A stretch of DNA of 64,000 nt from Diacronema lutheri. Taxonomy: Eukaryota; Haptophyta; Pavlovophyceae; Pavlovales; Pavlovaceae. The position numbers and the translations under genes are program-made. The stretch is taken from contig JAGTXO010000010.1 of assembly GCA_019448385.1 (NCBI GenBank), positions 558,001-622,000 on the forward strand. The letters are read 5' to 3'. The first letter of the stretch is position 1, and each line of letters begins with the position of its first letter. Of this stretch, positions 1-25,742 are shown piece by piece. A model generated the notes under the pieces. The model was not told the DNA's origin. It ran no database searches and was given only the letters and a program-made list of their open reading frames with translations.

Positions 1-540
1 GGCGAGTGGGCGAAGCTGCCGCGCAGCCTCGGCGACGGCGCCTTTCCCGCGGCGGTGCCGCCTGCGGGGGCCATGCCCGGCGCATTCCCGCTCGATCCCG
101 TGCAGCTGACCGAGGCGTCTCGGCCTACCCGGCGGAGCTCGTAGCCACTCGCCTCCTCTCGCTCGGCGAGGGGCTGTGCAGCGGCACGCGGCTGGTCGTG
201 CGCGGCGTGCGCGCCGGCGGCCGGCTGCTCGAGTGCGCGCGACCCGGCGCGGCCGCCGGGCGCGACAGCACAGTGCTCATCGCGCGCATCGACCACCACT
301 CGCCCGACGAGGGCACGTTCGCGTTTGCATGGCTGCACCGCCAGTTCCCGGTGCGGCCGGCGTAACAAGGCGCAGGGTCAAGCGCTCGGGTGCGCGGGCG
401 TGTGGCTCGCCGAGCCGTGCTTCACGCACGGCCAGCTCTACGTGGCCGCTTCGCGCGTCGGGCACGCGTCGCGCATCCGCTTTGCGCTTGGCCCGGACCA
501 TGTGACGCGCACCGTCGTCTTCAAAGAGGTGCTCCGCGCG
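1..540 (+). pseudogene. C-terminal end of a Helitron/PIF1-type helicase, decayed
   Basis: Three stretches read like consecutive parts of the Helitron helicase C-terminus. First comes a WAKLPRSLGDG-like segment near the window start. Then LCSGTRLVVRGV with a following RQFPVR near 170-360. Last is NKAQGQALG...FTHGQLYVAASRV, ending in VVFKEVLR at about 365-540. In intact Helitron helicases these form one continuous frame (GLCNGTRL, FPVRLAFAMTINKSQGQ, HGQLYVALSRV, VVYKEVL). Here they lie in different frames and linking residues are missing, so this copy of the helicase is probably not functional unless unseen introns join the pieces. The Rep part would lie upstream of the window. The helicase identity is clear; Helitron rather than a cellular PIF1 is likely because of the GLCSGTRL and KEVL motifs. 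Confidence 0.75.
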
Positions 541-2339: not shown

Positions 2340-3513
2340 CGGCGCAGGCGCGAAGAACGAGGGCAACGCGTGCTACACGACGTCCTTATGCAATCGCTCT
2401 TCGCCCTGAACGTGCTCCGTGCGATGCTTCGCTCCGCTTCGCGCCGTGCCAACAGCGTCGAGAGGGCGCGTTTTCGGGACTTTGGCACGCTGATCGAGGA
2501 CACCAAGGCGCCGACACGGCTGTGTCTTGTGTCCGTCATCGACGTCATCTCGGGCCGTGGCGCGCGAAGGACGCCGCAGGATGCCGCTGAGTTCTTCCGG
2601 TTGCTACTCGGCCGAGTGCCCGGGCTCGCTGCGGCCTTCGGAGCCGACACACGCGTCGGGCCAGTGCTCGAGCAGATCGCCGTGCCTTCAGAGTCCGGCG
2701 AGGGCATCGCCGTACTCGTCAGCGTCGGCGGCGATGCGGCGCGCGCGCTTGCACACGCTCTGGGGTGCGCCGCTGGGCCGCCGCGGGATCGCCACACGAA
2801 CGCGGGCCACTCGGGCGTGCTCACGCCAGCCAGCATCGCTGTCGAGGCGCCGCGCACGACGCGCGGCAATGGCCCGCAGTGCAAGAACAACCGCGCGCTC
2901 GTGTGCGCGCCGCGGCTGCTACTCGGCGGGCGCGACCACCTCCTCGTCGCCGGCGTGGTGCACGTGGGCGAGGGGCCGATGAGCGGGCACCTTGTCGCCA
3001 TCGTGCTCCGCAACGAGGCTTGGCTTCCGTGCGACGACTACAACGTGCGGCGGCGCGCACGGTCGCTCGGTGCCGCGACCGGCGGTCGAGCGCAGCCGCA
3101 ACCGCCCCGTCCTCCCGCGCGGCACGCGCGCGTGGCCTGAAAGCTCGCGCGCGCGCCTGCCGCACGCACGCGCGTTGCCCGCGCAGATCTACAACGTGCC
3201 TGAGTCCGACGCGCTGGCGTGGGCAAGTGGTGCGAGCATGCTCGTTCACAGCCGGCTCGACGTGGAGCCGTTGGACCCGGCGCCGGGCTCAGCGTCACCG
3301 CCGTCGGCCGCATCGCCTGCGTGGCCGAGCTCGGAGCCCGACGCGCCGACCTTGCCGGCAGCCTGGCCGCGGGTGCGGCAGATGGCAGCGGTGCCAACAG
3401 ATGCGACGATCGGCATCGCGGAGACGGCTGCAGACATCTCTACGGCGGCGATCGGCCCAGCTGCGCGCGAGGCCCGCCAAGTTGTCTCCGTGACGCGCGC
3501 ATTGCCAACAGCG
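2340..3513 (+). pseudogene. Ubiquitin-specific-protease-like (C19) domain of the element
   Basis: The USP signature boxes are present in order. The Cys box reads GNACYTTS (Cys codon at about 2371) and is followed by MQSLFALNVLRAML. A QDAAEFFRLLL box lies near 2572. A His box, GHLVAIV, has its His codon at about 2988 and is followed by a WLPCDDYNV segment matching the family's W-Y-x-FDD end. Family knowledge: such enzymes remove ubiquitin from proteins, with Cys and His as catalytic residues. The Cys box and the rest lie in different frames, so the copy is either interrupted or spliced in a way I cannot see. Downstream the frame continues to an exact GTGAGT splice-donor sequence at 3514, followed by a C homopolymer, suggesting the transcript continues past it. 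USP identity is good; that it is element cargo rather than a captured host gene is inference from position and strand. Confidence 0.6.
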
Positions 3514-6500: not shown

Positions 6501-6611
6501 GCAGATGGAGGACTCCGTGAAGGACGCTTTGCCCGGCGGGCGGGGCGGCTCGGACAGTTTCTCGCTGGCCCTCAGCACCATTCTGTCGCCGGGAGATACC
6601 CACACCCCCAC
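3514..6611. other. Unassigned interior of the element with C/G homopolymers
   Basis: This 3.1 kb stretch begins at a good splice donor. It holds a 28-base C run (3547-3574) followed by CA repeats, and G runs at about 4116-4165, 4571-4599 and 5964-5980. Long frames exist on the minus strand, but their composition is as expected by chance. A minus-strand segment at about 3900-4040 (GMVGPERKAALLAVLVRR) faintly resembles the start of a LINE endonuclease domain, too weak to call. No gene is assigned. It could be a long intron, a nested insertion, or both. Confidence 0.35.
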
Positions 6612-7110
6612 GTGGTCCCATCCACTTGCCTCATCGCCCTGCTGCGTTACGCGGATTTCGGCACGAGCAGGGTTAGGGTGGGCGACACGGGGTGCTCGCA
6701 GCATGCGCTCAAGGTGGCGCTGCGCAACCTGCGCAAAGCATGCGCGGATGCGGACCGGTTTGGGCAGGTGCTCGTGGTCGTGCTACCGTTCTGCCTCCGC
6801 GCGTCCAGCGGCCTCGCGCACTGGACGGCGGCGTACCTGCTCCTCGCGCCGCCCGCGCAGCGCGGCGCGCCGCCCGGCGCCGCGCTCGCCCTGCTCGCCG
6901 ATTCGCGCACCTTGGGCAACGGCGAATCGGCGTACGCCACGGCGGCCGGCGTGCTCATCAAGAAGCTTGCGCAGCGCATCGGCAGAACAGCGCCGCCCAT
7001 CGATGCCTTCAAGGCGCCCCCGCAGAGTGGGGCCGCGTGTTGCTTCGCCGCGGCAACAGTCGCGGCCGAGGTCGCGGCGAGCGCATCGACGCTCTACGGC
7101 CGCCGCGCGA
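6612..7110 (+). other. C48/Ulp1-like protease signature A in the giant protein
   Basis: The segment shows the His-Asp-(Gln)-Cys order of Ulp1/adenain-type cysteine proteases. AHWTAAYLLL has its His codon at 6819; LLADSRT has its Asp codon at 6900; PPQSGAACCF follows, with Cys codons at 7038 and 7041. Family knowledge: such enzymes cleave SUMO/ubiquitin-like conjugates or viral and transposon polyproteins. In a large transposon protein, self-processing is a possible role; that is inference. The similarity is pattern-level only, so a different papain-like fold cannot be excluded. Confidence 0.45.
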
Positions 7111-10100
7111 GTGTCCTTGTCGACATCAAGAAGGCTTTGGACGCGCGCCTCGCGCGCCTCACGACGGCCGCGTACGAGGAGACCCGCGCGCGCACGCTCC
7201 GCGCCGCCATCGGCGCTCTGCTCGGCGACCGCGCCAGGCGCTTCGGCCCGTTCACCCGCGAGGCCGCGCGGCTCGCCGAGGCCGCGCGGCTCGCCGAGGC
7301 GTGCGATGCCAGTGTCGGCGGATCCGCGCCCGACGGGCTGCTGCAGGCCGTCGAGGCGGCGCTGCGCGCGCCCGACGACCGCATCGCACGCACGGCCGCG
7401 CTCGACGCGCTCACGGGCGCTGCAGGCCGCGCGCTGTCGACGGCGGCCAGGCCGCGCGGCGCGGCGGCGCCAAGGCCGCCGTCGCGAGCGCCACCGCCGC
7501 GTGCGCCGCAGCGGCGCGCCGCCTCGGCGTGGGGGCCCCGACCATTCAGCCTCCTCGGCGGGGGCGAGGGCGACGGGGACGATGGCGACGCCACCACCGC
7601 TGACGACGGGGAGGGCGCGGAGGACGGGGACGACGACCTCGCGGGCGCGGCGGCTGCGGCGGTGGCGACGGGCACGGCGGCGACGAGCGCGGTGGCGGCG
7701 GGCGCGGCGCCAACCTCGCCGGCGGCGGCGGACGGCGGTGGCTCGGCGCCGCTCGAACGCCGCTGCGTCTACACTGCGCCTGATGAGGGCGACGCGGACG
7801 CGCGCGTGTACGACGCCAAGGACCCCGAGCAGCTAAAAGCGGGTAGGGCGCGGCTGCGGGCGAACAGCGGGCGCGCGCCCGCCGTGGTCGACACGCTTTT
7901 CGCGCACGCGACGGGCACGATCGTCACGCGGCAGCGCACGGAGGGCGTGACCGGCGCGGGCATGCACCACCTCGCCGCCCCGACGCAGGGCGCGGGGTAC
8001 GGTACCGTCGTGCGGGCCGAGCTGGGCGAGCCCGGCTTCGCGGGGACGACACGGCACATGACGTCGGGCGTGGAGAACCAGCCGCGCGCGGTACGAGCGG
8101 CCGCGCGCGCGTACGCGCACGACGGCTGGGGCGGCGTGTACAATGCGCACGAGGACTTTGCCGCCTTCGAGGGCTTGCCGCGGCTCGCCGCGCCCGAATC
8201 GCTCGCGGCCATCGCCGGCGGGTCGGCGGACGCGGTGTTCTGCTGGCGGTCCGGCCGGTCCGTCAACGGCGAGGTGACGACGGTTCACTTCAATGGCGAC
8301 CGCGCCGCCGCCATCGACCACGCGCGGGCGCTGCGCGTCAGGCCCGATTGGCGCTCGCAGCCCAGGATCTACGAGGCGGCGTGCGGCGCGGAGGGCACGG
8401 TGCTGCTCGTGTGGGTCGTGCCCGACCGTCACAAGAACCCGCGGCTGGACTGGGCGCCGATTCTCGTCGTGATCCACCTGCCCGCCGACCCCGACTGGCT
8501 CGCGCGCGCCACGCCGGCGATCGCGAAGGCGCGGCGCGAGGTCGAGGACGGACGCGCGCGCGCGGAGGCGCGCGGCGTGCCGCAGCACCTCGCCTACACG
8601 CTGAGCCCACGCTTCCGAGGCACCGCGCCGCGCGGCGCCGCGCGCGTGCCGCCGCGCCTCGGCGCGAGCGACGCGCGCGAGGCGCGCGCGCTCGCGGCGC
8701 TCGAGTCGGCGCTCATGTTCGCGCCGGCCTGGCGGCGCGCGGTGCGCGCGGCGAGCCGCGCCCCCGGCAGTGGCGCCGCGGCCGTCGAGCGCGCGCTCGC
8801 GCGCCTGCACAACGCGCCCGAGCCCGATGACGAGAGCGCGCCCGAGTCGGCGCGCGTCGCGCCGCTCGCCGCCGCGCTCGAGCAGTCGGCGGGCTGGCCG
8901 GCGGGCACGGCGCGCATGGCGGCAAGCGTGACCAAGGGCCCCGGCGTCGGAGATGGCGCAGGTGGCGACGAAGCGATCAAGGTGGAGGAAACGGCGAAGA
9001 CGAGCGGCGACGGCTGCACCGGCACGCCTCCTCTGCGCCCGGCCGCGCGCGCGGCCGGCGCGGCGGACGACGGAGGGGCGGCGGTCGTGGCGGGCGTCGA
9101 GGGCGAGCGCGACGCACTCGCCAAGACGGGTGCCGGCGGCTGCGACGACGACGCTCGCGAGCCGCTGTCGGCCGGCAAGCCCGGCGCACTCGCCGCCGCG
9201 GCGACCGTCGGGGGTTTCGGCGAGCTCGTCGGCAGCCTATGCGCGTGGCTGGCGCACGGCGCGGCTGGCGGCGCCATCGCGGCCATCTCCCCCGGGACGG
9301 CCGCGCGCGGAGCATACGGCACGCCGCAGCGCGCCGAGCCGCCGGCCGCCGGCGATCCCGTCGCTCCGCACGCGCGCGTCGCCGCTGCGGCGCCCTTGGC
9401 GGGCAGCGCGGCGGCGCCGTCGTCGGACGCGCGCGACGCGCAGCGCGGCGTCGCGGGATTCGACGCGGCCGCGCACGCGCACGCGCGCGACGGCAGGCGG
9501 GCGGCACGGCGGATGCGCGAGCAAGAGGGGGCGGTGCACAGGGCCTTCCGCATGTCCCTCTGGCGCGACGCGACGTTTGCCGAGTTCGTTGAGAAGCTGC
9601 GCCCCGACGGCGGCGCGCAGCTGCTCGCGCGCGAGCCCACGCGGCGCGCGGCGGCGGTGCTGTGCGAGCTCGCGCGCGGCCGCGACGGCGCGAGCGGCGC
9701 GGCCGGGCTGCTGCACGAGATGAGAGCCGCCGATGCGCGCGCGCGCGAGGCCGCCAAAGCGGCGGCGGAGGCAGCGCGGCCTGCGCACGGGACGCTGCGC
9801 ATCGTGGCAACCGTGGCGCTGGGCGGTGCGGTCTTCGCCGGCGTGTCAGCGCTGGTCGTTGCTTGCGCGGCGCGCACGGCGACCGGTGCGCTCTTTGGGG
9901 CCCGCCGCCCGCGGGCGGCCGCGCGCGGAGCCGACGACGCGCTCGGCGCGCCGCAGCGCGCCGAGCCGCCGCCCGCCGACAAGGGCAAGCGCAGGCGCGC
10001 CAGAGCCAACGACGACCCCGTCGACGCGGCGCGCAAGGCCGTGGGCAAGGCGGAGGGCAACTGCCGCAAGGCAGCCCGCCGGCTGCACCTCGCTGCACTG

Positions 10101-13100
10101 GGCGAGGAGGAGGCGCAGCAGCGCGTGCTCGACGCCGAGGCGGCGGAGCAGCTGGCGCGCTCGCGCGAGCCGGCCGGCGGCTGGGTAGGCAGCGCGCGCG
10201 CGCGCGCGCGCGCGCGCCCCGCCGCGCGCGCGCCCGTCGATTGGCGTGCGCGCAGCGCAGAACGGCGCGCCAGCTCCGTCACCCGCGCGCCGCCGCGCCC
10301 GTGCCCCTCGCGCGCAGGGGCGCCCTGCGGACCTGCGGCTGCAACAGGCGCACTTTGGCATGCGCGAAGATGCCGACGCGGATGTGCGCCGCGCGCACGA
10401 GGCGCTGCGCCGGGCGAGACAGGGTGTGGCGTGCGCCAAGGCCAACGTGCGGCAGATGGAGGCGGCGTTGCTCAACGCGACGCGCTGCGCCACCGCGGTG
10501 CTCGCGCCGCGTGGCGTGCCGGAGGGTGACGAGCAGGCCGCGGCGAGAGAGCAGGCGGCGCTGGACCGGGAGGCGCCGCCGGCCGCGCAACGCGCGGCGC
10601 CGACGGCGCGCTCGCCCTCGGAGCCGCCGTCCGAGTGGGGCCCGCCAGCGGTCGGCCGGCGCCCGACGCCGCGTGCACTGTCGCACGCCGCGGGGCGCGG
10701 GGACGACAACCCGTTTGCGCCGCTCGCAACCGTCAGCGGCGATTGGTCGCCCACGCCGAGCTCGCGCTCGCCATCCTCGCCGCCGCGGCAGCCGCCGTCC
10801 GACCGCCGCAGCGCGCAGCGTCGCAGCGCGCGCGCGCGGCCGCCGAGGCCGACCGTTTCGCCCGAGGACGCGCTCGCAGCCGAGCGCCAGGCGCGCGCGC
10901 TGTCGGAGCAGGCGGAGCAGAGGCGCGCCAAAAAGGCCGCCGCCAAGGCCGCGCGCCGCGCCGCGCGCGCCGCCGACAAGCGGACGGCGCGCGTCGTCCA
11001 CGCGTGCGTAAGCGCCGCCTTGCGGCGCGTCTGCACGAGCGTCGCCACGGGCACGCCGCTCGCCGTGCTCCGCGAGCGCGCCGAGGGGCCGCGCGCGCCG
11101 AAGGCGGCGCCCGCGCCGCCACGCCGCGCAGCGGACGGCGGCCGCGCGCTCCGCCACGCGCGTACGGCGGCCGCCGCGGCGGCGGAGCGCGAGGCGGCGG
11201 TGGCGGCCGACGCCGACGAGCGGTTCGAGCGGCAGCCCTCCGCCGCCCGGTTCGACGGCGGCGATGGCGGCGGAGGCGGCCACGTCGAGGCGAGCGCGCG
11301 ACCGCGCGCCGGCGAGGCCGGCGAGGCTGGCGCGCACGGCGCGCCTGGCGCAGCGGGGACCCCGGCGGCGTCGCTCGCGTCGCGCAGCCCGTGTGATGCG
11401 CGCCGCACGGCACGCCTCCCGCACGCACGCGCCGCAGCCACCTGCGCACGCAACGGCGGCTGGGGTGGCAACGTCGGCGGCGACGTGTGCGGCGATTGTT
11501 TCGGCGGCGGCGGCGTCCGTCGCGACGCCTGCGGCGGCGGCGACGCCACCTGCGGCTGCGGCGATGGCGGCGTCGGTGCTGGCGCTGGCGAGGCCCCTGC
11601 ACACGGTGCGCCGGCGCGCGCGACGGCGTCGCGCTTGCTGCGCTTGCTCGGCGCGCCACGCGCCGTGCTCGGTGCGATGGCGCACGCCGCGGCCGTGTTG
11701 GCGCGCGGCGTGGCCGCAGCCGTCGCTGGCGTGCGCGCCGCCGCGCGCGCCGTGCGGCGCGCGCGCCGCCGAGCGCCTCGCGCGCGCCGCACGGCTGCGC
11801 GGCGGGCTCGCGGCCCGCCGATGCGCGACGTCGACGGCGCCCTGCGGCCCTCGCCGTCCTGGTTGCGCACACGCCTCGTCTGCGGCCGGCGCCTCGCGCC
11901 TCTGCGCCGCGCGGGCGCGCGCCCGCCGCCCGCACACGCCGCGCCGAGTTCCCGCGCGCGCGCTGCGCAACCCGACAGCGACGCGCCGGCGTGCGCGCCG
12001 CGGCGCTCGGCGCCTGTCGGTGCGCCGCCGCGCGCGCGTGGCCTACGCGCGGCGCGCGCACGGCGCTTCCTCGACGTCGCCGGCCGCGCGGCGCGGAGCG
12101 CGCGCCTCGGCGCGCGCATCACGCGCCAGCGCACGCCGGGTTCGCCATCGGAGCCCTGCACGGCCGAGAGCGGCGACGGCGCGGGCGCCGGCGGCGTCGG
12201 CGCGGCGGCGCCTGGCGCGGCGACGATGCGCGCCACCGGCGCGCGCGCAGCGCGCGCTGCGGCGGCGGCGGTCGGTGGCGCCTCGCGTCTCGCGCGCCGC
12301 GCGATGGCAAGCGCCGCCGCCGCTGCCACCTCCATCGCCGGCGCTGCCGCCTCGACCGTCGCCGCCGCCGCCGTTGCCATCGGCGCGGCCGTCACGTCAC
12401 CGGCGTTCGCCGCGGCGCGCGGCATGGCGGCCGCATGCGTCGCTGCCTGCGCCCGCCCCACCGCCGCGCAGGCGGCCGCGTCGCGCGCGCTCGGCGCGCT
12501 CTTCGTGCTCGTCGACGCGGCCGACGCGGCGGGCGACAGCGACGCCGCGCTCGGCGCGCTCGCGGCCGCGGTCGACGCGACGGAGCTGCGCCCGCCGCCG
12601 GCCTTTTGGCGCGCGGGCCGCGCCGCGGCGTACGCACCGCGTCCGCCGCCCCTCGACTCGGCGCGGCCGCGCTACAACCGGCGCGCGCGCGCACCTAGCC
12701 CTCCCGTCGCGGCCGCGCGGCGCAATCTCGCGCGCGCGGTGCGCGAGCTCACGCGCGCCGCGCGCGCTGAGCGCGATCGCGCGCCGGCGCCGCGCGGCGC
12801 GCGCGGCGGCGTGCTCCACGCGCTGCGCGCGTCGCTCCCCGTGCACGCGCGTGCCGCGCTCGGCACGGACGCGGAGCTGCGCGCGGACATCGCCGCGTTC
12901 GCGCGCGCGCGCCGCGAGCTGCACAGCCTCACCGACGCCGAGGTGGCGGCGCTCGCGCGCCCGGACGGGCCGCCGCTGCCCGTGCGGCTCGCGTGCACGG
13001 CGGTCGCGCGCGCGCGCGGCGTGACCGTGCTGCTCGACATCGTGCCACGCGGCGGCGGCGCGCCCGAGCGGCTCGTGTGCCGCGCCCGTCGCCGCGGCGC

Positions 13101-14765
13101 CGCCACGCGCACGCCACGGCCGACAGCCGCCGTTATCGCGCGCGCGCCTTGCATAGCGGCGCGCGTTGGCCACACTGAGCCGGCGCGCGCGTGCGCGGGC
13201 GGATCGATCGGGGTCGCGCGCCTCCGTTCAGCGCGCCGCCGCTCTTGGCGTGGGGCGCGGCTCGACGTGCACACCCGCGAGCGGCTGGCCACACCGGTGC
13301 CAGGCCACGTCGTGGCCTGCGCCGCCGCCTCGGCCATCGGCGCGTGCGTCGCTCGCGCGCGGCTTGGGCTTGCACGGCTGGCGCGCGCGTGGCCCTGCGC
13401 CTCCGCTCCACTGGCCACTGCTGCTGTCGCCTTCGCGCCTGCCGCCGACGGTGTTTTCTGCGCCCCGCTGGGCGCTCCTGCACCCGCCTTCGCGCCTGCC
13501 GCCGACGGTGTTTTCCCCGCCGCACTAGCCGCTGCTGCATCCGCCTTCGCGCCTGCCGCCGATTTTCCCGCCCCACTAGTTGCTCCTGCACTCGCCTCCG
13601 CGCCAGCCACCGACGGCGTTTTCCCCGCCCCACTAGTCGCTGCCGCTGTCGCGTCCGCGCCTGCCGCCGCGGGCGTGTCTTCCGCCCCACCAGCCATCGC
13701 CGCCGCGCCCGCCGCCAACGTGCGCACCGCCAACGTGCCCGTTGCCAACGAGGCTACCGCCACCGAACCAGCCGCCCTTGAGCTTCCCCTCCAACCCGCC
13801 AACTCGGCGCTGCTGGCGTGGGCGGGCGACGCGGCTGCGCGCCGGCTGGCCTCCGCCGCCGCGAGCGCCGGCCTCCCGCAGGCAGAGGTGGAGCGCATCG
13901 CCAGCGGCGACATGCTCGCCTCAACCGTCGACGCGTGCTGCGAGGTCGTGCTGCGCGTGCACGGGCAGGCCGGCGGCGGGCATGTCTGCCACGTGCCGCT
14001 CGCCGCGCAACCCGCGGTGTTCCAGGACGGCGCCGAGCGCGCCGCGCTGCTGCACCGCCTGCGCAGCGAGGCGACAACGCAGGCTGTCATCGGCGTGTGG
14101 AGCCCGTCGGACGAGCGCGGCGGCGCGGGCGGTGACGACGGCGCGCAGCTCGCCTCCGGCCATTTCACCGCGTTGCGCCTTGTGCGCGTCGCGCGCGCGG
14201 GCGAGCATCGCTACGACGCGGTGCTCGTCGACACGCTCGCGTCGCCCTGCAGGCAGGCGCTCATGCTCGCCAAGGCGATAACTGCCACGCTGCACGCGGC
14301 GGGTCTCGACATTTCGCGCGTGCGCCGCGCGCTGCTGCTCAACGAGGCGGCGCAGCGTGGCGCGACGTGCGGCCTCGCGATAGTGGGCGCGCTCAACGAC
14401 GCGCTCGCCGCGGCGGGCTGCTCGTCCGCGCCGCGCACGTTCAGCGTGGCGGACATGTACGCTGTCGGCGAGCGCCTCCGCGTCGCGCTGACCGGCGCGG
14501 CCAGCGATCGTGCGCCGGGCGGCGTCTGCGCGGTCACGAGCGCGGTGCGTGGCGGGGGCAGCCCCGATCGCGCCGAAACGCCGCCGCAGACGCGCGGCGC
14601 CAAGGCCGCCGCTGGCGTCACCGCCGCCGCCACCGCCGCCGCCACGCCGCCGCCGCCCGCGCTGGGCGCCGCCGCCGCCGCCACCGCCGCCGCCGCCGCT
14701 GCTGCCGCCGCCGTGGCCGCGCCGCCACCGCCGCCACCGCCGCCGCCGGCCGGCGACGAGGGCGA

Positions 14766-14810
<45 letters not shown>

Positions 14811-17800
14811 GCGCACGTTCTTGAAGCTCGCGCCCAGGGCGCGCGCGGCCGCCTCGGCGCGTGAGGCGTTGCGCGCCGCGTGTGCGCGCGCGGACGCGGC
14901 GGCGTCGTCACACGCGTCGGCGCCGCACGCGCCCGCCGGTGCGCGCCGCCGGCGGCGCGCGGGCGCAGGCGAGCTGGCGCTCGCGGCTGCGCGCGCGCTC
15001 GCCTCGACGGAGCACGGCGATTTGACGGACGACGCGCTCGAGGCCGCCATCGAGCAGGAGCTGGGCGACGAGCGCGGCCAACTGCTGCTGTGCACGCGGG
15101 GCGCAGCGGCGCAAAGGCCCGCGCTTTGCCGGCTCCTGAAGCACGCGTGCGCGTCGGCGCGCGCGGCGAAGCGCGCGCAATTCACGGTGTTCGTCGTGTG
15201 CGCGGCCACGCGCGGCGAGCGGGGGGGCGCCGCCGCGAGGCGCGTGGACTCGGTGGTCGAGCTGTCGTGCGCGCTGCACGAGAAGGCGGGCGCGCTCGGC
15301 GGCCTCCAGAGCGTCTGTGTGCGTGGCTTCGCCCTCGAGCGCCGCCGGACACTCGACGCTGGCGCCGAGGCCGGCGCGTCCGCCATCGGCCAGGACGAGC
15401 AGGTCGAGGCAGAGGCGGGCGAGGCGTGCGTCGCCGGCGTGACGATGGCCAAGCAGCTGCGTCAGTTTGCCGAGCAAGCTGCCCGCGACGACGTGCTCTT
15501 CCACGTCGCCGTGTCCGAGGCCGACGCCCACGCCCGGCTGGCGCGCGTTGCGGGTGACGATGTCGGCGCGTACAGCGTCGTGCTCGCAGTCGCCGGGCTC
15601 GTCTGGCTGGCCAAGGCCGACGAGGTTGCGCCGGCGGCCGCCCAGTCCGCCGCCGCGCCGCCCGCCGCCTCGCCTGCTGCCGCCACGTCCGCCGACGCCG
15701 AGCGCGACGCCTCGCCTTCCGACCGCCTGCGCGCGCTGACGCTCGCCGTGCGAGTCGCGCTCGCGCGCGGCGTGCTGCGCCACCTCCTCGCCGACGCGTC
15801 GCCGGGCGCGTCCGCGACCGCTGGCGGTAGTTGCGCGACGCCCGTCGAGGCGGCCGCGTCCGCCGCCGCGCCGCCCGCCACGGGCGTCGTGACGAGTGGC
15901 GTTGCGGCGGGCGCTGTGGCGGCCGCACCGGCTGCTGCGGGCGGGGCGACGGCGGGTGCATCGCCCATCACGCGGCCGGCGAAGCGCGCGCGGCGCACGC
16001 TCACCGCCGCTCCAGCCGCCTCGGCCGTTGCGGCCGCTGGAGGCGCACGCGCTGGCGCACGCGGCGCGGCCGGCGCGCCTCGCGCGCGCGCCGCGCGCGC
16101 GCCGGCCGAGTACGTCTGGCTTGCCATCGCGCGCCGGATGCTGGCGGCGCGACACGCGGCGGCCGCGGGCGGCGACTTTGTCGCGTCGTGCGTCGCCGCG
16201 ATGCAGGCCGAGTACGGCGACGGCTGTGCCGTCGTCGTCGGCGACGCGCCTGGTGACGCCTTGGTCGAGGCTGCGGCGGCGGCGCTGCTCGAGGGCAAGC
16301 ACGCGGCGGTGAGCCTCCGCTGCGTCGACCGGCCGGCGGTGCTCGTCGTGCAGCGCGCCGTGGACGCGCCCACGTCGCGCGTGCACGGGTGGTGCGCGCA
16401 CGCGGCGGGCGCCGCCGAGTTTGACGAGGGCGCCGCGCACGGCGTGTTCAACGCGATCGTCGAGCGCGCGTGGGCGCTGCGTCCGGACCCGGCCGACGGC
16501 AGCCCGCCGCCCACGCGCACGTGGGAGGTCGAGCGCATCGCTGACGACGCGCCCGACCAGGCGGGCGTGGCCGCGCTGCGCGTGCTCTACGCGCTCGTCG
16601 CGGCGCACGGCCGCTACCGCTCGGCCGCCGCGCTCTCTGGCGCGCTCGCGCAGCTGCACGCGCCCGACGCCGCCGGCGCGCGCGCGGAGGTCGTCGCGGC
16701 GGCGTGCGCGGTGCCGCCCGGCGCGCGGCCGGGCGCCGCGCCGGCGGCCGCGCGGGACGACGCGAGGGAGCGCGCATGGGAGGGCGCTCGGATCGCCGCG
16801 CTCGCCGTCGGCGCGGACGCTGCGCGCAGGCGTGTCGCGCCCGTGCGCGCGCTCGTCGACGCGCTCGGCACGCCACCGACCTCGGCGATCACGGGCGGGC
16901 CGGCGGTGCGGCTCGCGGGCGCGGGCGACGGCGGCCACGGTGCACGGTGGGTGGGCGGGCAGGCGGCGACGCCCGCCGAGCAGCTGCCGAGGGAGCTGCT
17001 GCGCGCCTACCACGAGGCGGTGCTGTGCGTCACGCCCGGCAGCCTCCAGCTCGACTCGGCGGCGCTCGACGCGGTCACGCGGCCGCGCGAAGACGACACG
17101 CTGGAAGGCCTCCTCGCGCGCGTCAGCTGGCAGTGCGGCGCGAGGGCGAGCACGTGCGCCATGCTCGCCACGTTTTCCGAGCAGGCGGGCACCGGCTCGC
17201 GCGTCGCGCTCAAGGCCCTCCGCACGAGCTCCGACCTGGCCGGGCTGACGGCGGCTGCGGTCGGGCAGCAGGCGCCGCAGACGCCGCCGCCGCCGCTGCT
17301 CGTGATGCTCGGCCGCTGCCCCAGCCCGCTCGTCGGCGGCGGCCTCTTCCCGCCCGACCGCGCGACGGGCGAGCCGGCGGTGCACGCGGCGACGTCCGAG
17401 CTCGCCGTCGAGCTGCTGCGCGACGCGCGCGCGCTGGCCGGCACGGACGGGCGGCTCGTCGTGCTGTGCCTCGAGGCGTCCAACCCGCTCTGGTTCTGCC
17501 CCAAGGTGCGCGAGCTCGAGCTGCCGCGGACGCGGTCGGACGGCGTGCGCGCGTCCGGCTGCACCTGCCCTGCGACGTGCAGCGATGCGCGCGGCGCGGC
17601 GGGTGGCGCTGCCCGCGGCGCATCGACGCGGCCGGCGGCGCGCGCGATCAACAAGGCGGTGCTCGACCACTTCGTCGCGCTTTTCGGCCGCGAGGGCTTC
17701 GCGACCTTTGAGTTTGCGGGCGGCGGCGAGGCGAGCTGGCTGTGCGACAGCGCGGCCGGCAAGACGACCGTCGCGGCGTGCGCGTCGCTCCCGCCGCGCA

Positions 17801-20800
17801 TGGGCGATGGGCAGCTGGCCATCCGGCGGCACACGCTCGGCACGGGCGCCGACGCGCCGGCGCACGCCGTCGTCTCGCTCCGCGTCGCGCACGTGAGCCA
17901 CGCCATCCGCCGCGCGGCGGACGACGGCGGCGCGCGCGCCGAGCGGATGGCGCGCGCCGCGCGCGCGTTTTGCGATGTGGCGGCCGCGCTGCGCGTCGAC
18001 GCGATCCTGGCGGAGGTGCCCGAGGACCGCCCGACGGGCACGCCCTTCCTTGGCGGGCTGCTCGAGTTTTGGAACAAACGCCACGGGAGCTCGACGGCGC
18101 CAGCCACGCTCGCGCTCGGAGACGTGCGCGAGGTGGCCAAGCGGACGGCCGACGCAGCGGCCGGCCGAGCGGACGAGGTCCCTGCGGCTGGCCGTCCGCA
18201 GGTCGCGGCGCGCGCGTGCGCTGGCGCGATTGGCGGCGGCGCGGGCGCGGCGGGCGCCTCGGACGCTGCGCCCCGTGCACTGGCGGGCGCGTCGGGTGCG
18301 CGCACGGACGGCGGCCCTGCCGACGCACCGCGCCAGCTGGAGAGCCGCTACGGCGAGGCGAGCAAGCTCGACCTACCCCAAGATTCCACTACGGGCTGCG
18401 TCCTCGACGCTCGCGAGGCCCAGGACCGCGCGCGCGTGCCTGCTGCGCCCGACGGCACAGCGCTGCGCCGCGTGCTCGACGCCGTCGGCGCGGGCGCGCC
18501 CGCGCAGCGCAGCCCGCGCTGGCACGACGAGCGATGGGAGGAGGTCACGGGCAGCAAGGTTGGCGACGTCGTGAACGACAACGCCGGCGTCGCGCACGAG
18601 ACGCTCACCGACGAGTACGTGCACCGGCGGCGGCGCGAGGTGCGGACCAAGGCGACGACCGCGGGCATCCTCGGCGAGGCCGTCGCGCTGCGCAAGCTGG
18701 CGGCCGCGTACGGCATCACCGTCGTGTGCAACCTGCCGATGGTGCGTGCGGACCCGCACGACAAGAGCGCGCCGTTCGCCTTCTCGCCGGACGGGCTCGC
18801 CATCCTCCCCGAAGACAACGAGCAGGTCCTCGTCGAGGTGAAGACGCTCACCAAGGCGGACGCCAAGGCGCACGAGGACGGGCCGCCGCAGCCGCACCGC
18901 GATCAGCTGCAGCTCGGCATGCACGTCCTCGGCGTGCGCAAAGCGCTCTACGTGCAGTACCTCAGGCACGAGGACCGGATCGTCGTGCACGTCGTGACGC
19001 GCGGCGTCGGCTGGCTTGCATTCGCGCAGCCGAGGGTGCAGGCCTTCTGGGCGCGCGTCGTCGAGCGGCGCGCGCGGCTCGAGCGCGCGCGCGCCGACCA
19101 CCCGGCTGCGAGCCGGCGGCACCGGCGGCAGCAGACGCCGGCCGGGCCGCCGCTCGTGCTCGCGCTGGACGGGCGCATCCCCGCCGCGCGCGCCGCCGCG
19201 CTGCACGCCGTCGCGCACGGCACCGCGAGCGCGGCGGCGGTGGCGGCGACGGCGGCGACGGGCGACGCGACGGCGTTGCAAGACGCGATCGCGGCGCTGC
19301 GCGCGCCCGTCGGCAATGCGGCGATCGACAGCGCAGCGCGTGCGGAGCGCGCGGCCGTCGAGCGGGCGATCGCGTACCTCGGGCAGCCGGCAGGCGACGC
19401 CGCCGCCCGCGGCACGGCCGAGGCGGCCGAGGAGGAGAGGACGGTCGACGCCGACATCTGCGCGTTGCTGCACCAGCTCGGCGCGAGCGTGGCGCACGTG
19501 CACGTCGAGGACGCGGATTGCGTCACGCGTGAGCACTGGGGCGAGGCGGTGCTCGCTGCAGCGGGCGACCCGTCGAGCGCCCCCGCCATTTCGAGCGTCA
19601 TCGTCGCGCACATCGTGCGGCTCGCCGGCTTTGGCGTCGAGCTCCCGCAGTCGATTCGCGTCGCCCCCAGCACGGCCGACTGGCACGAGGGCTGGCTCGA
19701 CGTGCAGTGCGTGCTGCTGCGCACGCGCCGGCGCGGGCGGCGCGACGACGACTTTGTGGCCGTCGTCAGGCGCGGTGGGCGCTGGTTTGCGTGCGAGCCC
19801 GGCCGCGCGCGGCGGCTGCAGTGGCGGTCGGTCCTGCGCCGCGCGCGCGGCGGCGTCGACGGGACCGGCGAGGAGGCGTTCGCGGTCGTCTACGTGCGGC
19901 GCGGCGACGCGGCCGGCGACGCGGCTGGCGACGCGCAGGCCGAACGGGCGCGCGGCGGGCGCGCGCGCAGGCGCACGCGCGGCGGCACGCGCAAGCGCAA
20001 GCGCGGCGCCTCCGCCGGGCTCGAGGCGGCCGCGCCCGCCGGCGCGCCGGCTGCCGCGCCCGCCGGCGCGCCGGCGGGCGCTGCTCACCGCCCGCCCGCC
20101 ATGCGCGCGACGGTCGCCGCGCGCACCACGCGCTCTGTGACCGACGCGCGGCACTCGGCGCCTGCCGCCACGGTTGCACCTGTCTTCGACTGGCGCGCCG
20201 GCCGCCCGCCCCCCGCCGCTCGAGCCCGCCACCCGCGGCCGCGTGGGCGCGCGCCACCGGGCAAGGCCTGGGACAGCGTCTCGGGTGCGTGGGCGGACAA
20301 GCCGACTGGTGCTGCCGTCGCCGGCGCGCCGCCGCCGCTGCCGCCCGCCGCCGCGCCGCCGCCCACCGCCGCGCCGCCGCCCGCCGCCGCGCCGCCGCCC
20401 GCCGCCGCGCCGCCGCCGCCGCCGCCACCGGCGGCGCTCGGCCGCCGGCAGCACGTCGGCGCGGGCGGCAGCGCGGCGGGCCGGCGGCTCGCGGCCATCG
20501 CACGGCGGCAGCGCGGCGTGCGCGCGCCGCCGCCCGCCGCGCGCTTCCTCGCCACGCTGCCGCCACCGCCACGCGACGGCCTCGCGCGCACGAGCAAGCA
20601 GGCGCGCGCGAGGCGCAACGCGGACGGACGGCCGGCGCACGCGCGCGCGGCCAACGCGCGCGCCTTCTACCGCGGCGTGGAGCTCGGCGTGCACGCGACG
20701 CGCGCCATCGTCGACGCGCGCCACGCCGACCTGCCGCAGGCCGTCTTCGTGGCGGAGGCGCGGGCGATCGTCGCGCGCTCCGCCGGCGGCGGCGCGCTGC

Positions 20801-23800
20801 TCGCGCCGGACGACGTGCGCGACCTGTGCGACGCGCAGACGGACGCCGATCGCGCTGCGATCTGGGCGTCGGTGGGCGCGCACGAGGCGACGCGCATCTT
20901 CGCGCTCGTCACGCGCAACGCGAGCTTGGCGGGCGCGGCGCTGCTCGTGCTGCACACGCCGGCGGGCGCGCCGGCGCGCGCGCTCGGGCTCGTGGCGACG
21001 CGCTCGCGCGCGCCGTCGACGGGCGCGCCGCGCGACGCGCACAGGGCGCTGGTGCAGCGGTTGGACGTGCTGATGGACGCGATCGCCGCGGCGCGAGGCG
21101 CGTCGCCGCTCGAGCTCGAGCTCGCGCTCGCGCCCGAGCCGCAGAGCGCGTGCAACGCGCGTGCGGCCGCGCTGCTCTGCCTGCAGGCCGTCGCGGACGC
21201 GAGCGGCCGTCCCGCCGCTGAGGACGCGCTGGCCGCGCTCGACGACGCGCGCGGCATCGACCGGCACTGCCACGCCGTCCGGCAGCAGATCGAGGCGAAG
21301 CTCGCGTGGCGGCGCGCCGACGGCGCCGTCGGCGTTGACGGCGCCGACGGCGCGCCCGCGCTCGCGCCTGCCGCCGCACCGCCGGCGTGCGCGCCGGCGC
21401 ACGCTGCCGGCGAGGCGGCGGTCGACCAGGCGATCGTCACGCGGGTGCGCGACGCGCTGCGCGCGTGGGCGACGACTGGCACCGCGCCCAGCGCGGCGGT
21501 GCTCGACGACGCCTGCGCCGCGTACACGGCGCGCGCACGCGCGCGCAAGGACGCGCGCACGGCGCTGGGCCCGACGCGCGCGGCCGAGCTGCTCGCCGCG
21601 GCCGCGCGCGGCGGAGCCGACGGGGCGGATGCCGCGCGCGCGCTGCTCGGCGGCACGCCGCGCCTGCTCGTCGTGCTCCTCTGCGTGCCCGTCGCCGCGC
21701 CGTCCGGCGAGCCGCCGCGCCCGGTCGGGCTGCTCGTCGCCGACCGGCCGACGGACGACTCGCGCCCGGCCGCGCTCGTGCGCTACGACTTTGCGCCGCT
21801 CGACGCGGACGTGGCCGTCGCGGTCGGCGCGCATGCCGTCGCGCTGGCCAGTGCGATCTGGCCGCTGCTCGCGGCCGAGGGGGAGCCGCGGCCATCGCCC
21901 GTCGTGCGCTCGCAGCCGCGCGGCGGCGACGATGGCGCGCGTGCGCTCGCAACGTTCGCGTGCCTCGACGCGCTGATGACCGCCAGCGTCGGCGCGCACG
22001 GCCTCGCGGGCGGCGCGGGCATGCTGCCCGCGCTGGTCGCGCGAGGCGCCGCGGCCGCCCAGCGCGAGCGGCAGCTGCGCGCGGCCGCCGAGAGGCTGGG
22101 CGGCACGGTCGCTGGGTGGCCGGACACGGGCGCGAGCGCGGCGGGCGCGAGCGTCGACGAGGAGGCGCGCACGTACGAGGTCGAGGCGGTCGTCGACGAG
22201 CGCCGCAAGGCGGGCAAGAAGGTGACGTTCCAGTTCCGGATCAGGTGGCGGGGCTACGACGAGAGCGCCGACACGTGGGAGCCTGAGGCCAACGTGAGCA
22301 GCGACCTCGTCGCCCAGTTCCGCAAGACGCGCGACGAGCAGAAGCGGCGCGCGGGCGGATCGGGCAGCGGCAGCGGCGGCGCGGGCGCGGCGTCGGCATT
22401 GGCGTCGGCGCCGCTTCGCGCGCACGGCGAGTCGGGCGCCGCGGGCAAGCGCGCCGCGGCGGGTGCCGCCGCGAGCGCGCGCGACGCCGCGGGCGCGCGC
22501 GCGCCGAGCGTTCTCCGCGCGCGCGGCGTCGAGCGCGCGCGCGTGGACGAGCCCGCTGCGCCGAGCGCGCGCGCCGCCGGCGGCGCGACGGCGCGCACGC
22601 GCGGCAGCGTGCTCCCGGGCTTCGTGGTCAAGCGCTCGACGCTCAACGCGGGGCCGCAGGCGGTGACGGCGCAGCCCGGTGCGCGGAAGGAGCTGCGGCG
22701 CATCGCGGCGGCCGTGCACAGGCTCACGACACAGGCGTACCGCGTCATCAACAAGGTGGTGCGCGACGAGGCTGCGGTGGCGAGCGCGCAGGCCGTCGGC
22801 GCGGCGTCGGGCGGCCCGTCGACCAGCGTGCACACGTCGACCACGATGGACAAGGGAACCGTCCGTGCGATCTTCTCGGCCATCGGCTGGCACAAGGACG
22901 AGAGCACGTACGGTGCAGCGCCCCGAGGCAAGCCCGCCGAGCAAGCCGCCGCGCAGACCAAGGCGGCGACGGCGCGCGCCGTCGGCGAGATGGCCGAGGG
23001 CGTCCAGCCCGTCTGCGCGGTGGGCCTCACGGAGATCCTCGAGGCGGAGGCGACGCAGGTGTCCACCGCGTGCCTGATGCACCCATCGCGCGTCGTGAAC
23101 GGGCTGCTCCGCGACGTCGTCCGCGCGGCAGTCGAGCGCGACGAGGCGCTCGTCGCGCTGCCCGAGATGCAGCGAAACGCGCGCGTGCGCGAGCTGTGCG
23201 AGCGGCTGCTGCGCGGCGACGTGGAGGGCGCGCGCGTCGGCTGCCCCGCCGCGCTCGACCGCCACCTGCCCGACATGGTCCTCCACAAGATCGACTACAA
23301 GTGCACGCCCACGAAAAGGTGGAACTACGACCGGCACACGACGCGCTACTTCCTCGTGCAGATCCGCAACCTGCAGCACGTGGCCGAGGGGCAGGCGCTG
23401 CTCTGCCGGCTCGCGCACATCCACACGCAGCTGACCGGACGGCCGCCGCGGTACAATGTGGCGCCACTGCGCACGCACAATGTGCGCGCGAGGCGCGGCT
23501 GCCGCTGCCGCCGCCGAGCGCCCAAGCGCGCGCGCCGCCGCCGTGCGCGCCGCCCCGCGGCCAGGTTGGTCACGCGCCCGCGCGCTCGCATGCCGCGCGC
23601 TGCGCGCAGGTGCCGCGCAACGTGCGCCTCACCGCGAACGCCATCTGGGAGACGCTCCCGGACGACGAGCGCAAGGAGCTGCGCGCGCGGCTCAAGGCGC
23701 TGGACCTGCGCGACCACGATGGTGAGCCGATCAGGTGGACAGGCACAAACGGCAACACCCCGCCGATGTCGGACGTGCGCGTCAGGTACGCGGTCTTTGC

Positions 23801-25114
23801 GACGCGCTTCGACATCTCCAACCGCGTCTTCGACTACGCCGGGCGCGAGCGGCCGCCGGCCGATCTGCCGTGGCACGCGCGGCGCTCGTGGGTTGGCCTC
23901 GCGCCGCTGCCGCGCGTGCCGCTCCCGGGCCGGCAGCCCGTCACGTCGGTGGTGACGGACGGCGTCGCCGTGCACGCCGTCGGGACCGTCCTCGTGCCGA
24001 AAGCGCAGGCGCCGGCCGGCGGCTCGGGCGTCCTGCACCGCTGGCGCCGGCCGGACGGGCGCATCGCCGTCGCGCTCGGCTCCGAGCTGCGGCGGGCGAT
24101 CGACGTCGAGGCGGCGGTCGTCGTCGCGGCCGACCCGAACATGGGCAACATCACCACCTACTCTGCGCACGTCGGGCGGGCGGCCGTCTGGCGGCAGTTC
24201 ACGCAGCGCGCGCGCGCGCGCGCCGCGGGCTTTGCGCGCGAGACGGCCAAGACCAACGCGGCGCGGCGGCGCGTGCGCAAGGACGGGCGCGGCGAGGAGT
24301 TCAGCGTGGAGGCGGACGAGGCGCGGCTTGGCGAGGCGCACAGCGCCAAGGTGCTCGACGCGGGCAAATACATCGCCTTCCACCGCGAGAGCGCGCGGGT
24401 GCGCGAGCGCGCCGCCGAGCACGTGTACGACGCGCCGGCGCGCCGCAAGGAGCGCTGGCGGCGCGACAGCGGCGGGCGGTCCAACGCGGCGTGCGTCGCC
24501 GAGGCGCTCATCGCGGCGCACTGCGTCGACGGCGTGACGCGCGACCGGCTGCTCGTGTGCGTGGGCAAGTGGCTGCGCGACCACAAGGGCGCGCAGCCCA
24601 AGGGCGCGCCGCCCGCCTTCCAGGTGGGGCTGCTGCGCGAGCTGCGGCGGCGCGGCGTCGCGGCCGTCTTCGTGCCCGAGCCGTACACGTCGATGCATTG
24701 CTCGATGCCGCGGCTCGCCAAGGGCGGCAGGCTGCAGCGCTGCGGCGCGGAGCTCGCGCAGAACCCGCGCCTGCCCGTGGCAAAGGGCGGCACGCGCACG
24801 GTGCACGCGCTCGTCATCTGCCCGGCGTGCAACGGCGGCAAGAAGCCCGTGCACCGCGACTACAACGCCGCGCGCAACATCTTCTACGACGTGCACGACA
24901 TGGCGGCGCACGCGGCCGGGCGCGACACCACGTCGACGCCTGAGCGCTTTGCCCTCGTGCTCGCCTGGTGGGCGCGCGGCGAGGTGTGGGAGCGTGAGGA
25001 GCGCATGGTGCACGGCGAGGGCGACGACTGCGACGACGAGTGCGACGGCGACGACGAGGGCGACGACGAGGGCGACGACGACGACGACGACGACGGCAGC
25101 GGCGACGGCGGCGG

Positions 25115-25147
<33 letters not shown>

Positions 25148-25334
25148 AGGCGGCGGCGGCGACGACGACGATGACGGCGGGGGAGGCGGCGGCGGCGACG
25201 GCGGTGGCGACGACGGCGGCGGGCGCGGCGGCGGTGGCGGCGGCGGCTCTCGCGCCCGCACCCCCGCCCGCGGAGCTGCCAGCGCCAGTGCCGGCGGCGG
25301 CAGCGCGCGCGGGCCGAAGCGCGGCCGGCGTTGA
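6612..25334 (+). CDS. Giant multidomain protein: C48-like, C48-like, YqaJ, chromodomain, Fanzor
   Basis: By my reconstruction three exons (6612-10184, 10318-23457, 23610-25334) give about 6,145 codons. The 5' end is undefined because no ATG opens the frame at 6612, so an upstream exon is likely. Intron 1 (10185-10317, GT-AG) joins two halves of an Ala/Arg-rich coiled coil in phase 0. Intron 2 (23458-23609, GT-AG) joins the two halves of the Fanzor module in phase 0. Domains, by approximate residue: C48-like protease signature 70-145; hydrophobic membrane-type segment 1061-1085; second C48-like domain near 2400-2545; PD-(D/E)XK nuclease of the YqaJ type 3923-4111; chromodomain 5143-5202; Fanzor 5313-6145. 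Long Ala/Pro/Gly linkers separate them, with a Lys/Arg-rich, nuclear-localisation-like patch near 19950-20010. A 13 kb frame free of stops is less surprising at this GC content, but recognisable domains all lie in that same frame. It may be one polyprotein or several genes with unseen starts. Confidence 0.6.
13431..13690 (+). repeat. Imperfect tandem repeats coding for Ala/Pro-rich units
   Basis: Four to five imperfect units of roughly 60 bases encode variants of FAPAADGVFPAPLVAAA within the giant frame. Units differ by substitutions and small in-frame length changes, so the reading frame has been kept through expansion. It reads as a flexible linker upstream of the second protease-like domain. 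Confidence 0.7.
13900..14424 (+). other. C48/Ulp1-like protease domain B in the giant protein
   Basis: This is a better match than domain A to the C48 layout. SGHFTALRLV has its His codon at 14161; YDAVLVDTLASPCRQ has its Asp codon at 14230; QRGATCGLAIVGALND has its Cys codon at 14368 and a Gln a few residues before it, as in the Q-x(n)-CG box of Ulp1-like enzymes. All lie in the same frame as the YqaJ, chromodomain and Fanzor parts. Proposed role: cleavage of SUMO/ubiquitin-like modifiers or processing of the giant protein itself (inference). Two such domains, A and B, in one protein suggest internal duplication or separate capture. Confidence 0.55.
14585..14817 (+). repeat. GCC/CCG trinucleotide tract coding poly-Ala and poly-Pro
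   Basis: A dense GCC/CCG-repeat stretch in the giant frame encodes runs of Ala interrupted by a PPPPPPPPP block. A similar CCG/CCC-rich Pro/Ala tract recurs at about 20330-20440. Both behave as disordered linkers and lie in frame. Confidence 0.8.
18511..19077 (+). other. YqaJ-type (lambda exonuclease family) nuclease domain
   Basis: The segment begins SPRWHDERWEEVTGSKVGD and shows the YqaJ-type motifs in order. A GILGEAVALRKLA helix contributes a Glu; FSPDGL contributes the metal-binding Asp; VLVEVKTL gives the E-x-K core; RDQLQLGMHVLG gives the Gln-containing helix after the core; then a YVQYLRHEDRIVVHVV strand. Family knowledge: these PD-(D/E)XK enzymes are 5'-3' exonucleases acting in phage-, virus- and transposon-borne recombination, usually with an annealing protein. 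All core residues expected of an active enzyme are visible. No annealing partner is visible in this window. Confidence 0.8.
22171..22350 (+). other. Chromodomain upstream of the Fanzor module
   Basis: TYEVEAVVDERRKAGKKV is followed by FQFRIRWRGYDESADTWEPE and an SSDLVAQF end. This has the classical chromodomain shape: a YEVE strand, RWRGY, a DTWEPE box and a C-terminal helix. The aromatic positions (Tyr, Trp, Tyr) that hold methyl-lysine are present. Family knowledge: chromodomains bind methylated histone tails and in retroelements steer integration into chromatin. Here it could tether the fused nuclease to chromatin (inference). Confidence 0.85.
22681..25334 (+). CDS. Fanzor module (eukaryotic TnpB-like RNA-guided nuclease)
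   Basis: Roughly 830 residues, joined across an intron at 23458-23609 that links ...RPPRYN to VPRNVRLTAN. The C-terminal half carries the full TnpB/Fanzor RuvC set: VVAADPNMGN (Asp codon 24132), FVPEPYTSMHC (Glu codon 24678), and HRDYNAARNI (Asp codon 24858). Between the last two a zinc ribbon is formed by Cys residues in MHCSM, QRCGAE and CPACNGG. The N-terminal half has basic helical segments expected of the guide-binding part. It ends in a very acidic Asp/Gly tail of about 90 residues and a basic RGPKRGRR end before TGA at 25332. Family knowledge: Fanzors cut DNA guided by an RNA encoded next to or overlapping their 3' end. All catalytic residues are intact. Its in-frame joining to a chromodomain and upstream domains is unusual. 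Confidence 0.88.
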
Positions 25335-25742
25335 CGCACGGCCGAGCCGCGCAGCGGTCGACGCTTTGCGGGCTCTGCCCAGGTCGCGCGCGGCTGGCGA
25401 CGCGTACCGCATTCGGCACGCCCGTGCACGCCGCCACCCGTGGCCGAGCGCGCCGCACCAGCCGGCCCGCTCCAACCGCCGTGCGGATCACGGACGCTCG
25501 CTACGGCTCGTCGGCGCGCGTCACCTGCGCCGGCGGCCACGGCGCCGTCTGCTCCGGCCTCGTCGCGAGCAGCCCGACCGCTGCTCGCCGCCCGCACGCC
25601 GCCGCAGCAACGCTGCGCGTCGTGCTCCCCCGCTCGCCAAACGCGAAGAGCTCCCTCACAAGGACGTCCTTCCGAATGGCCCGCGCTGCACTCGGGGCGC
25701 TCGATCGTGCCCCTGATCGGATTTGGCTTGACCATCTATACC
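25335..25742 (+). ncRNA. Candidate Fanzor guide (omega) RNA region at the element end
   Basis: The 408 bp from the Fanzor stop to the element end encode no recognised protein. They are about 95% conserved in the second copy at 46617-47304, which keeps this part plus only the acidic tail of the ORF. In TnpB and Fanzor systems the guide-RNA scaffold lies at the 3' end of, or just after, the nuclease gene, and the guide is the sequence directly beyond the element end. By that rule the scaffold would end at ...TTGACCATCTATACC and the guide at this site would start ATACGTGACTTGACG, in the RED/IK 5' region. The position matches the rule; structure and expression are not shown here. Confidence 0.5.

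Follow-up and report, generated by a model that had tools for sequence, protein, structure and literature searches.

We analysed a 64,000-nucleotide stretch of the genome of the haptophyte alga Diacronema lutheri (NCBI GenBank assembly GCA_019448385.1, contig JAGTXO010000010.1, positions 558,001 to 622,000 of the forward strand; hereafter the window). Within it we focused on positions 6,612 to 25,334, where a preliminary description had proposed one giant gene joining a Fanzor protein to a YqaJ nuclease, a chromodomain and two C48-like proteases. Most of this region is taken up by a single open reading frame (ORF) on the plus strand (10189-23955), which runs from stop to stop over 4,588 codons (13.8 kb). 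Because long frames arise easily at the 75-82% G+C found here, we compared it with shuffled versions of 6601-25334. The longest ORF was 1,598 codons in dinucleotide shuffles (n = 300) and 1,993 codons in off-frame triplet shuffles (n = 300), and we conclude that the uninterrupted 13-kb frame is real. A coding pattern, with third-position G+C of 86-98%, was found in one frame across 6601-10200 and in a second frame across 10201-23400, and G+C by codon position returned to the first frame at 23401-25200. The exception is a 600-bp stretch (13201-13800) that includes a tandem array of a 57-bp (19-codon) unit at 13403-13695 (+), longer by 57 and 513 bp in the copy of this region on contig C4 (see below). 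The first long exon of the giant gene is placed at 6600-10184 (+), with a coding signature from about 6600 and 1,246 codons between 6447 and its donor. Upstream of 6600, the clearest coding-like G+C stretch was 2401-3000.

The second frame holds most of the recognizable domains. The RecE/YqaJ-type exonuclease core (SPDG ... VEVK ... QLQ; 18520-18927, +) matched YqaJ weakly in Pfam, with an E-value of 0.018 for the full frame and of 2.4e-4 as a segment, 0.2 bits below the cut-off; in PHROGs, the segment matched the RecE-like exonuclease phrog_434 with an E-value of 2e-17. Its translation contains SPDG...VEVK, which we take to be the PD-(D/E)XK residues of YqaJ/RecE exonucleases. A chromodomain lies at 22174-22326 (+; Pfam PF00385, E = 5.2e-12, 45.9 bits against a cut-off of 25.1), and its solved relatives are CDYL, the best match, and HP1 proteins. 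The N-terminal half of Fanzor, which starts at approximately 22330 and ends at 23481 (+), was assigned by position and frame and had no Pfam family match of its own. The catalytic half with its acidic tail (23610-25334, +; in the frame 22287-25334) matched the Cas12f1-like TNB family of Pfam (E = 3.6e-6, 27.5 bits against a cut-off of 26.3). Its translation contains ADPN (D) at 24129, PEPYTS (E) at 24675, a C-C/C-C zinc finger and HRDYNAA (D) at 24852, so the proposed identity of this protein as a Fanzor was borne out. For some of these D, E, D and zinc-finger motifs the role given is our own assumption. For the others it is as set out in the passages of PMC3627910 on which we draw. A sequence search of the PDB gave no meaningful match to YqaJ or to the C-terminal half of Fanzor. 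Taken together, one giant coding frame uniting a RecE/YqaJ exonuclease, a chromodomain and a Fanzor is well supported, as first described.

The two C48-like segments were placed by motif only: motif A (H-W ... D-S ... Q-S ... C) at 6816-7043 (+), in the upstream region that we call domain A, and motif B (H-F ... D-T ... Q ... C-G) at 14158-14373 (+). The H-D-Q-C motif is present in both, but neither segment had a C48 match in Pfam up to an E-value of 10, and the nine PF02902 matches in the genome all lie elsewhere. Shuffled proteins contained the pattern in 0 of 500 cases with a strict form and in 1 of 500 with a loose form. Comparison of ten segments of the giant protein with each other revealed nothing linking the protease-like segments, and the best internal similarity was between YqaJ and the segment behind it (E = 0.009). 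Because the pattern was derived from these same two segments and recovered none of four genuine C48 loci of the genome, and because a single-sequence structure model of segment B was uninformative (predicted local distance difference test score, pLDDT, of 42), we treat the two segments as candidate C48-like proteases by motif. Additional degenerate C48-like repeats, noticed by eye, are not put forward here.

Both changes of frame coincide with phase-0 GT-AG pairs. The first joint has its donor at 10185 and four exon starts that fit (10261, 10318, 10348 and 10402), and we set the presumed intron 1 at 10185-10317 (+). This gap contains a (GC)n run, which may explain why both frames are in phase in some copies. 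The presumed intron 2 (23482-23609, +; 128 bp) joins the N-terminal and catalytic halves of Fanzor. The upstream extension proposed through a phase-matched intron stood with regard to the joint and to the long frame that it enters, and the protease signature said to lie there is a candidate motif. A protein start at 6612 could not be upheld. No in-frame ATG was found in 6447-7000, and among domain A copies (the best 150 of 184 matches) the match to the window frame ends at about 6600 in 149 of 150. For these two reasons an exon further upstream probably holds the start of the protein. At about 6600 there is also a 2-bp insertion or deletion (indel) that distinguishes copies.

The giant gene is the cargo of a high-copy mobile element, which is 29.09 kb long in the window copy. 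At its 5' end the element reads GGCGCGGTCC, at about C86:554652 and 3,349 bp ahead of the window; at its 3' terminus it reads CATCTATAC, at 25741, which places window positions 1-25741 (+) inside the element. This assignment rests on common ends and on alignment to the copies on contigs C75, C96, C1, C12 and C4, in which the similarity runs far past 6612-25334 and ends sharply at both termini. In the genome (43.5 Mb, 103 contigs) we found 240 5' ends (up to three mismatches) and 216 3' ends (up to two mismatches), and none with backwards-pattern controls. Pairing took in 100 5' ends and 98 of the first 100 3' ends listed, those on C49 and C50 being left out; 65 of the 98 have a 5' partner no more than 60 kb away. 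The 64 pairs spanning less than 40 kb add up to 1.78 Mb, which is 4.1% of the assembly. By length they group at about 31.0 kb (26 pairs), 29.1-29.5 kb (8), 26 kb (8), 21.5 kb (13) and other sizes (9). The commonest class, about 31.0 kb, is the full form, and the window copy belongs by size to the 29.1-29.5 kb class.

The copies are nearly identical. Six of them (C75, C96, C1, C12, C4 and C26) differ from the window copy at 0.3-1.1% of aligned bases. At 98-100% identity there are at least 101 copies of the Fanzor catalytic half (best 101 of 408 matches scored) and at least 150 of YqaJ (best 150 of 238), with 113 of these 150 in frames of at least 4,000 codons. A single occurrence of YqaJ in the genome is rejected by these counts; one genome search gave only one match because most copies score below the threshold. 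The locus had been described as a single odd gene; it turns out to be the principal gene of a mobile element whose near-identical copies number well over a hundred. Locus L001, considered as a different family, is another near-identical copy.

Of 13 insertion sites read, 12 have TATATA[C/G] immediately ahead of the 5' end; the exception is the copy on C75. Among ten copies with both flanks read, one (C9) has a flanking repeat, of about 15 bp, and none was seen by eye in the other nine. We looked for the 3' end in inverted orientation and found none in the portion of the element inside the window (up to three mismatches) and no exact one in the portion outside it. The non-coding 3' end (25335-25741, +), a candidate guide-RNA region, contains the inverted repeat GGGGCGC...GTGCCCC, 28 nt from its terminus. 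The GGGGC...GCCCC repeat is present in 16 of 16 3' ends compared and in the RNA fold of the last 242 nt, which is as stable in 6 of 200 shuffles (z = -2.2). Rfam had no match within the window. The window also contains, at 46617-47278 (-), a 5'-truncated copy consisting of the 3' end only, and a direct repeat of 32 bp that includes one mismatch borders it on both sides (47305-47336 and 46585-46616). This copy is diverged, and by eye one G-T pair of the 3' inverted repeat has given way to G-C in it.

We also observed that the assembly breaks at the element, with contig ends often within about 10 bases of a 3' terminus pointing outward. The 3' terminus is at a contig edge in six cases (the starts of C1, C12 and C26 and the ends of C8, C14 and C32), and 5' ends about 31 kb inside suggest the same for C5, C6, C10 and C29. 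A 5' terminus at a contig edge is rarer, with two cases (the starts of C96 and C32). The genome paper gives a read N50 of 23.5 kb (PMC8379373), which is shorter than the element. It reports 22.9% repeats with long terminal repeat (LTR) elements as the largest annotated class, and the word stem "transpos" does not occur in its main text (PMC8379373). Outside the element, the host flank contains clean tandem arrays of 22 bp (31972-32254), 31 bp (45885-46140) and 7 bp (34345-34489), and a DnaJ-like match below the cut-off at 52241-54841 (-; E = 2.6e-5).

The 5' third of the element carries further genes, which we read mainly from the C1 copy, where they accompany the giant frame: a PIF1 helicase across several frames and a USP-type ubiquitin-protease-like exon. 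PIF1 profile matches had E-values of 8e-19 and 6.7e-22 (L037, directly upstream of the window) and 4.2e-14, and 96 of 236 helicase matches were scored. The best solved relative of the helicase is Helraiser, a Helitron transposase (E = 8.6e-7). The N-terminal part of the helicase is missing from the window copy, and its C-terminal part maps from the C1 copy to approximately 1-1000 (+); the window ORFs 145-2406 and 1046-2047 in this region had no Pfam match. A PDB sequence search with the helicase N-terminus gave no meaningful match. The USP-like exon (2348-3049, +) matched UCH with an E-value of 4.3e-5, 0.2 bits below the cut-off, and USP12 best in the PDB (E = 0.0021). By eye, the C1 copy has all three of the Cys, QQD and His boxes, motifs that we assume to be diagnostic, and the Cys box region differs between copies (GSACYTTVLMQSLF in C1, RGQRVLHDVLMQSLF in the window). 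In the 5' part of the window copy there is also a stretch whose inverted ends are of the CTACACCC type. At L037:5510-6005 and L027:8181-8676, inverted stretches that have CCTACACCCTACACCC-like ends, in an arrangement that varies by copy, resemble a smaller element inserted within this one. The C1 copy also has short stretches of coding-like sequence on the minus strand, at element positions 779-1861 and 2963-3307 (L038, L027), and one of them includes a membrane-like segment; the window copy's ORFs in the 779-1861 region had no Pfam match. A scan of the C1 copy for HUH motifs gave nothing convincing by eye. The sole Helitron Rep-like match in the genome is at G000:C63:35738-36019 (E = 8.3e-23).

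The arrangement of the domains bears on whether the element has one giant gene or several. The copies compared for order, phase and indels share descent. Among the matches listed, all 99 pairs of domain A and YqaJ have domain A on the upstream side, and all 80 pairs of YqaJ and Fanzor have YqaJ upstream. For the spacing counts, the domain A start in the window was shifted by 12 codons to align with its start in the other copies. The spacing between domain A and YqaJ took 40 values in the 99 pairs, with phases of 81, 12 and 6, and the YqaJ-Fanzor spacings had phases of 65, 13 and 2. In five pairs, domain A and YqaJ stand in one unbroken frame of 4,864-6,136 codons. When seven copies were aligned, indels in 6602-25050 were nearly all multiples of three, and those upstream mostly were not; a split pair of indels on C26 sums to 33. 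The 21.5-kb class, checked on ten contigs, has a YqaJ frame of 3,762-4,193 codons in 12 of 13 members and domain A or the helicase in none of the 13 among the matches listed. This class seems to be without domain A, so that part of the gene can be missing, and the exonuclease, chromodomain and Fanzor may be invariably retained. The preliminary description had named relatives with the domains apart or reordered as evidence against one gene; within this genome the outcome favours one gene, no reordering being found among the matches listed, although the 21.5-kb class seems to lack domain A.

Taken together, we consider it reasonably probable that the window contains a giant transposon, possibly of Helitron-like type, that carries Fanzor within one polyprotein of about 6,000 residues, which would be translated as a single chain and then processed. 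The ends and target look like those of single-strand (HUH or Helitron2-like) transposition, because no inverted repeats were detected, the left target is fixed, the right terminus is similar to it, the 3' end carries an inverted repeat and the helicase is Helitron-like. We describe the element as a Fanzor transposon and not as a proven Helitron.

Several observations weigh against this reading. With regard to the single chain, 15 of the 80 YqaJ-Fanzor spacings and 18 of the 99 spacings between domain A and YqaJ are out of the main phase. There are single-base indels on C75 at 16038 and on C12 at 25179, the latter in the acidic tail, and many indels fall in repeats with a unit length divisible by three. 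Substitutions in 10530-23600 look neutral, both at shared sites (91 nonsynonymous against 94.4 expected) and at private sites (90 against 94.6), as do the private sites of the Fanzor C-terminal half (8 against 8.6). In favour of the reading, the shared (subfamily) sites in that half had fewer nonsynonymous changes than expected, 5 against 9.1 (P = 0.005), in one of 54 such tests. Neutral-looking substitutions are what young, mostly inert copies would show, and as a result the coding claim rests on frame and periodicity. With regard to the mode of transposition, no transposase family was recognized among the scanned ORFs, which were selected from the longer ones, and the Helitron Rep family PF14214 has a single genomic match, on C63. 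Helitron2-like subterminal inverted repeats, first seen by eye, were rejected because 1,496 of 2,000 shuffles reach their score. The DNA folds of the last 102 nt (z = 0.77) and of the 5' end (z = -1.08) were no better than those of shuffles, and the hairpin does not appear in the 3' one. Finally, a direct repeat such as the one flanking the truncated copy is not predicted by simple HUH insertion.

A potential model for a Fanzor transposon of this kind is as follows. The giant gene would be spliced and translated as one polyprotein, which its own C48-like or USP-like proteases would perhaps cut. The chromodomain would anchor the polyprotein to marked chromatin, and the helicase and exonuclease would produce single strands and trim them. 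By analogy, Fanzor may be guided by RNA from the 3' end of the element plus flanking host DNA, and the last 242 nt of the element could be the guide RNA. The guided nuclease would then cut the empty site and favour copying back; a TnpB-like role for Fanzor in cut-and-copy has been suggested by Saito and others in the part of PMC10432273 that we cite. In its strongest form, the model is a self-contained transposition polyprotein, in which one chain of about 6,000 residues would deliver three components to a single place, namely an RNA-guided nuclease, a RecE-type exonuclease and a methyl-histone reader. We hold this form to be tentative and somewhat doubtful. If it is true, guided cutting, resection and chromatin targeting occur jointly, and by these means a 31-kb element has come to occupy more than 4% of an algal genome.

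The element shares features with several known systems. Chromoviral integrases carry a chromodomain, and here too a chromodomain is found on a mobile-element protein, likely for targeting; unlike in chromoviruses, no integrase was found and the chromodomain precedes Fanzor. Helitrons, and Helraiser in particular, resemble the element in the PIF1-type helicase, which is nearest Helraiser's, and in having no detected inverted repeats, whereas here no Rep (HUH) domain was found, the ends are not TC...CTRR and the target is TATATA[C/G]. The Chlamydomonas Fanzor1 elements CRe-1, CRe-2 and CRe-3 (Bao and Jurka) are non-autonomous members of the Helitron2 group whose full-length copies, in the account given in the relevant passages of PMC3627910, have no duplication and follow the fixed tetranucleotide TTTT, while 5'-truncated ones have duplications of 7-19 bp. 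Like these elements, the one described here is an algal Fanzor element with a fixed short target before its 5' end (TATATA[C/G] in place of TTTT), full-length insertions mostly without duplication and a 5'-truncated copy with one. Compared with the same passages, it differs in having a helicase inside the element, a Fanzor within a giant frame with an exonuclease and a chromodomain, 3' ends not in excess over 5' ends, a 32-bp flanking repeat in one truncated copy in place of 7-19 bp, and asymmetric inverted repeats not above chance. IS200/IS605 elements with TnpB (in part PMC10432273) also have a fixed short left target, a similar right terminus and an RNA-guided nuclease beside the right end, whereas the present element is eukaryotic, about 31 kb long and has no TnpA that we found. 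ISL2EU is likewise a eukaryotic transposon with a YqaJ exonuclease, but the passages of PMC4482050 on which we draw give it a DDE transposase, inverted repeats, two separate ORFs and a length of about 4.8 kb.

Four other explanations were weighed. The element may be real and the long frame may yield several separate proteins from internal promoters or starts, so that the domains never form one chain. The missing ATG at 6447-7000 and the neutral-looking substitutions fit this explanation, as does the 21.5-kb class, which indicates that inheritance of the second frame does not require the first. The 4,588 codons without a stop, the codon periodicity, the phase-0 GT-AG pairs at both frame changes and the constant order of the domains in all pairs found argue for a single gene, and we regard separate proteins as unlikely. 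Less likely still is a tyrosine-recombinase (Crypton-like) element in which TATAC, common to the left flank and the right end, is the crossover core. The left flank TATATA[C/G] and the right terminus CTATAC do share letters, no inverted repeat was detected, target duplication is mostly absent, and an association of Fanzor1 with Cryptons is stated in the part of PMC10711439 that we used. However, the ORFs scanned gave no recombinase family match in that selection, with no search aimed at recombinases having been made.

A multiplied remnant of an integrated DNA virus, either a giant virus or a polinton-like one, appears very improbable. Exonucleases and helicases occur in large viruses, and the N-terminus of the helicase presumably resembles a viral single-strand binding protein, although no tool confirmed the resemblance. 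Fanzor itself is found in large viruses according to the sections of PMC3627910 that we consulted. On the other side, no capsid or polymerase family was found in the selection of ORFs scanned, the copies have fixed ends and a target motif, and IMG/VR held no close relative of the helicase, of the Fanzor C-terminal half or, by a degenerate pattern, of the helicase N-terminus. The truncated copy, shortened at its 5' end and flanked by its 32-bp repeat, is what a retroelement might leave; yet no reverse transcriptase was found in the scanned selection, both ends of the element are conserved and 5' ends (240) are not fewer than 3' ends (216). A retroelement is accordingly the least probable of these explanations, and a Fanzor transposon with one giant polyprotein is the reading that we prefer.

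Fanzor proteins are RNA-guided nucleases, and their job for their transposons is open. In the open-access literature, outside which most preprints and subscription papers lie, we found no element with Fanzor and YqaJ or with Helitron and YqaJ, and no such element was described in articles on Fanzor with haptophytes or Fanzor with Helitron. The element described here, a single giant type that makes up at least 4% of the assembly by its 64 paired copies, is young and very successful, and in it Fanzor appears to be joined to an exonuclease and a chromatin reader. Its structure suggests that RNA-guided nucleases have been fused to resection enzymes in nature. The ends are exact, the target motif is short and near-identical copies number more than 100 in a small cultured alga, so that the element makes the role of Fanzor in transposition testable.

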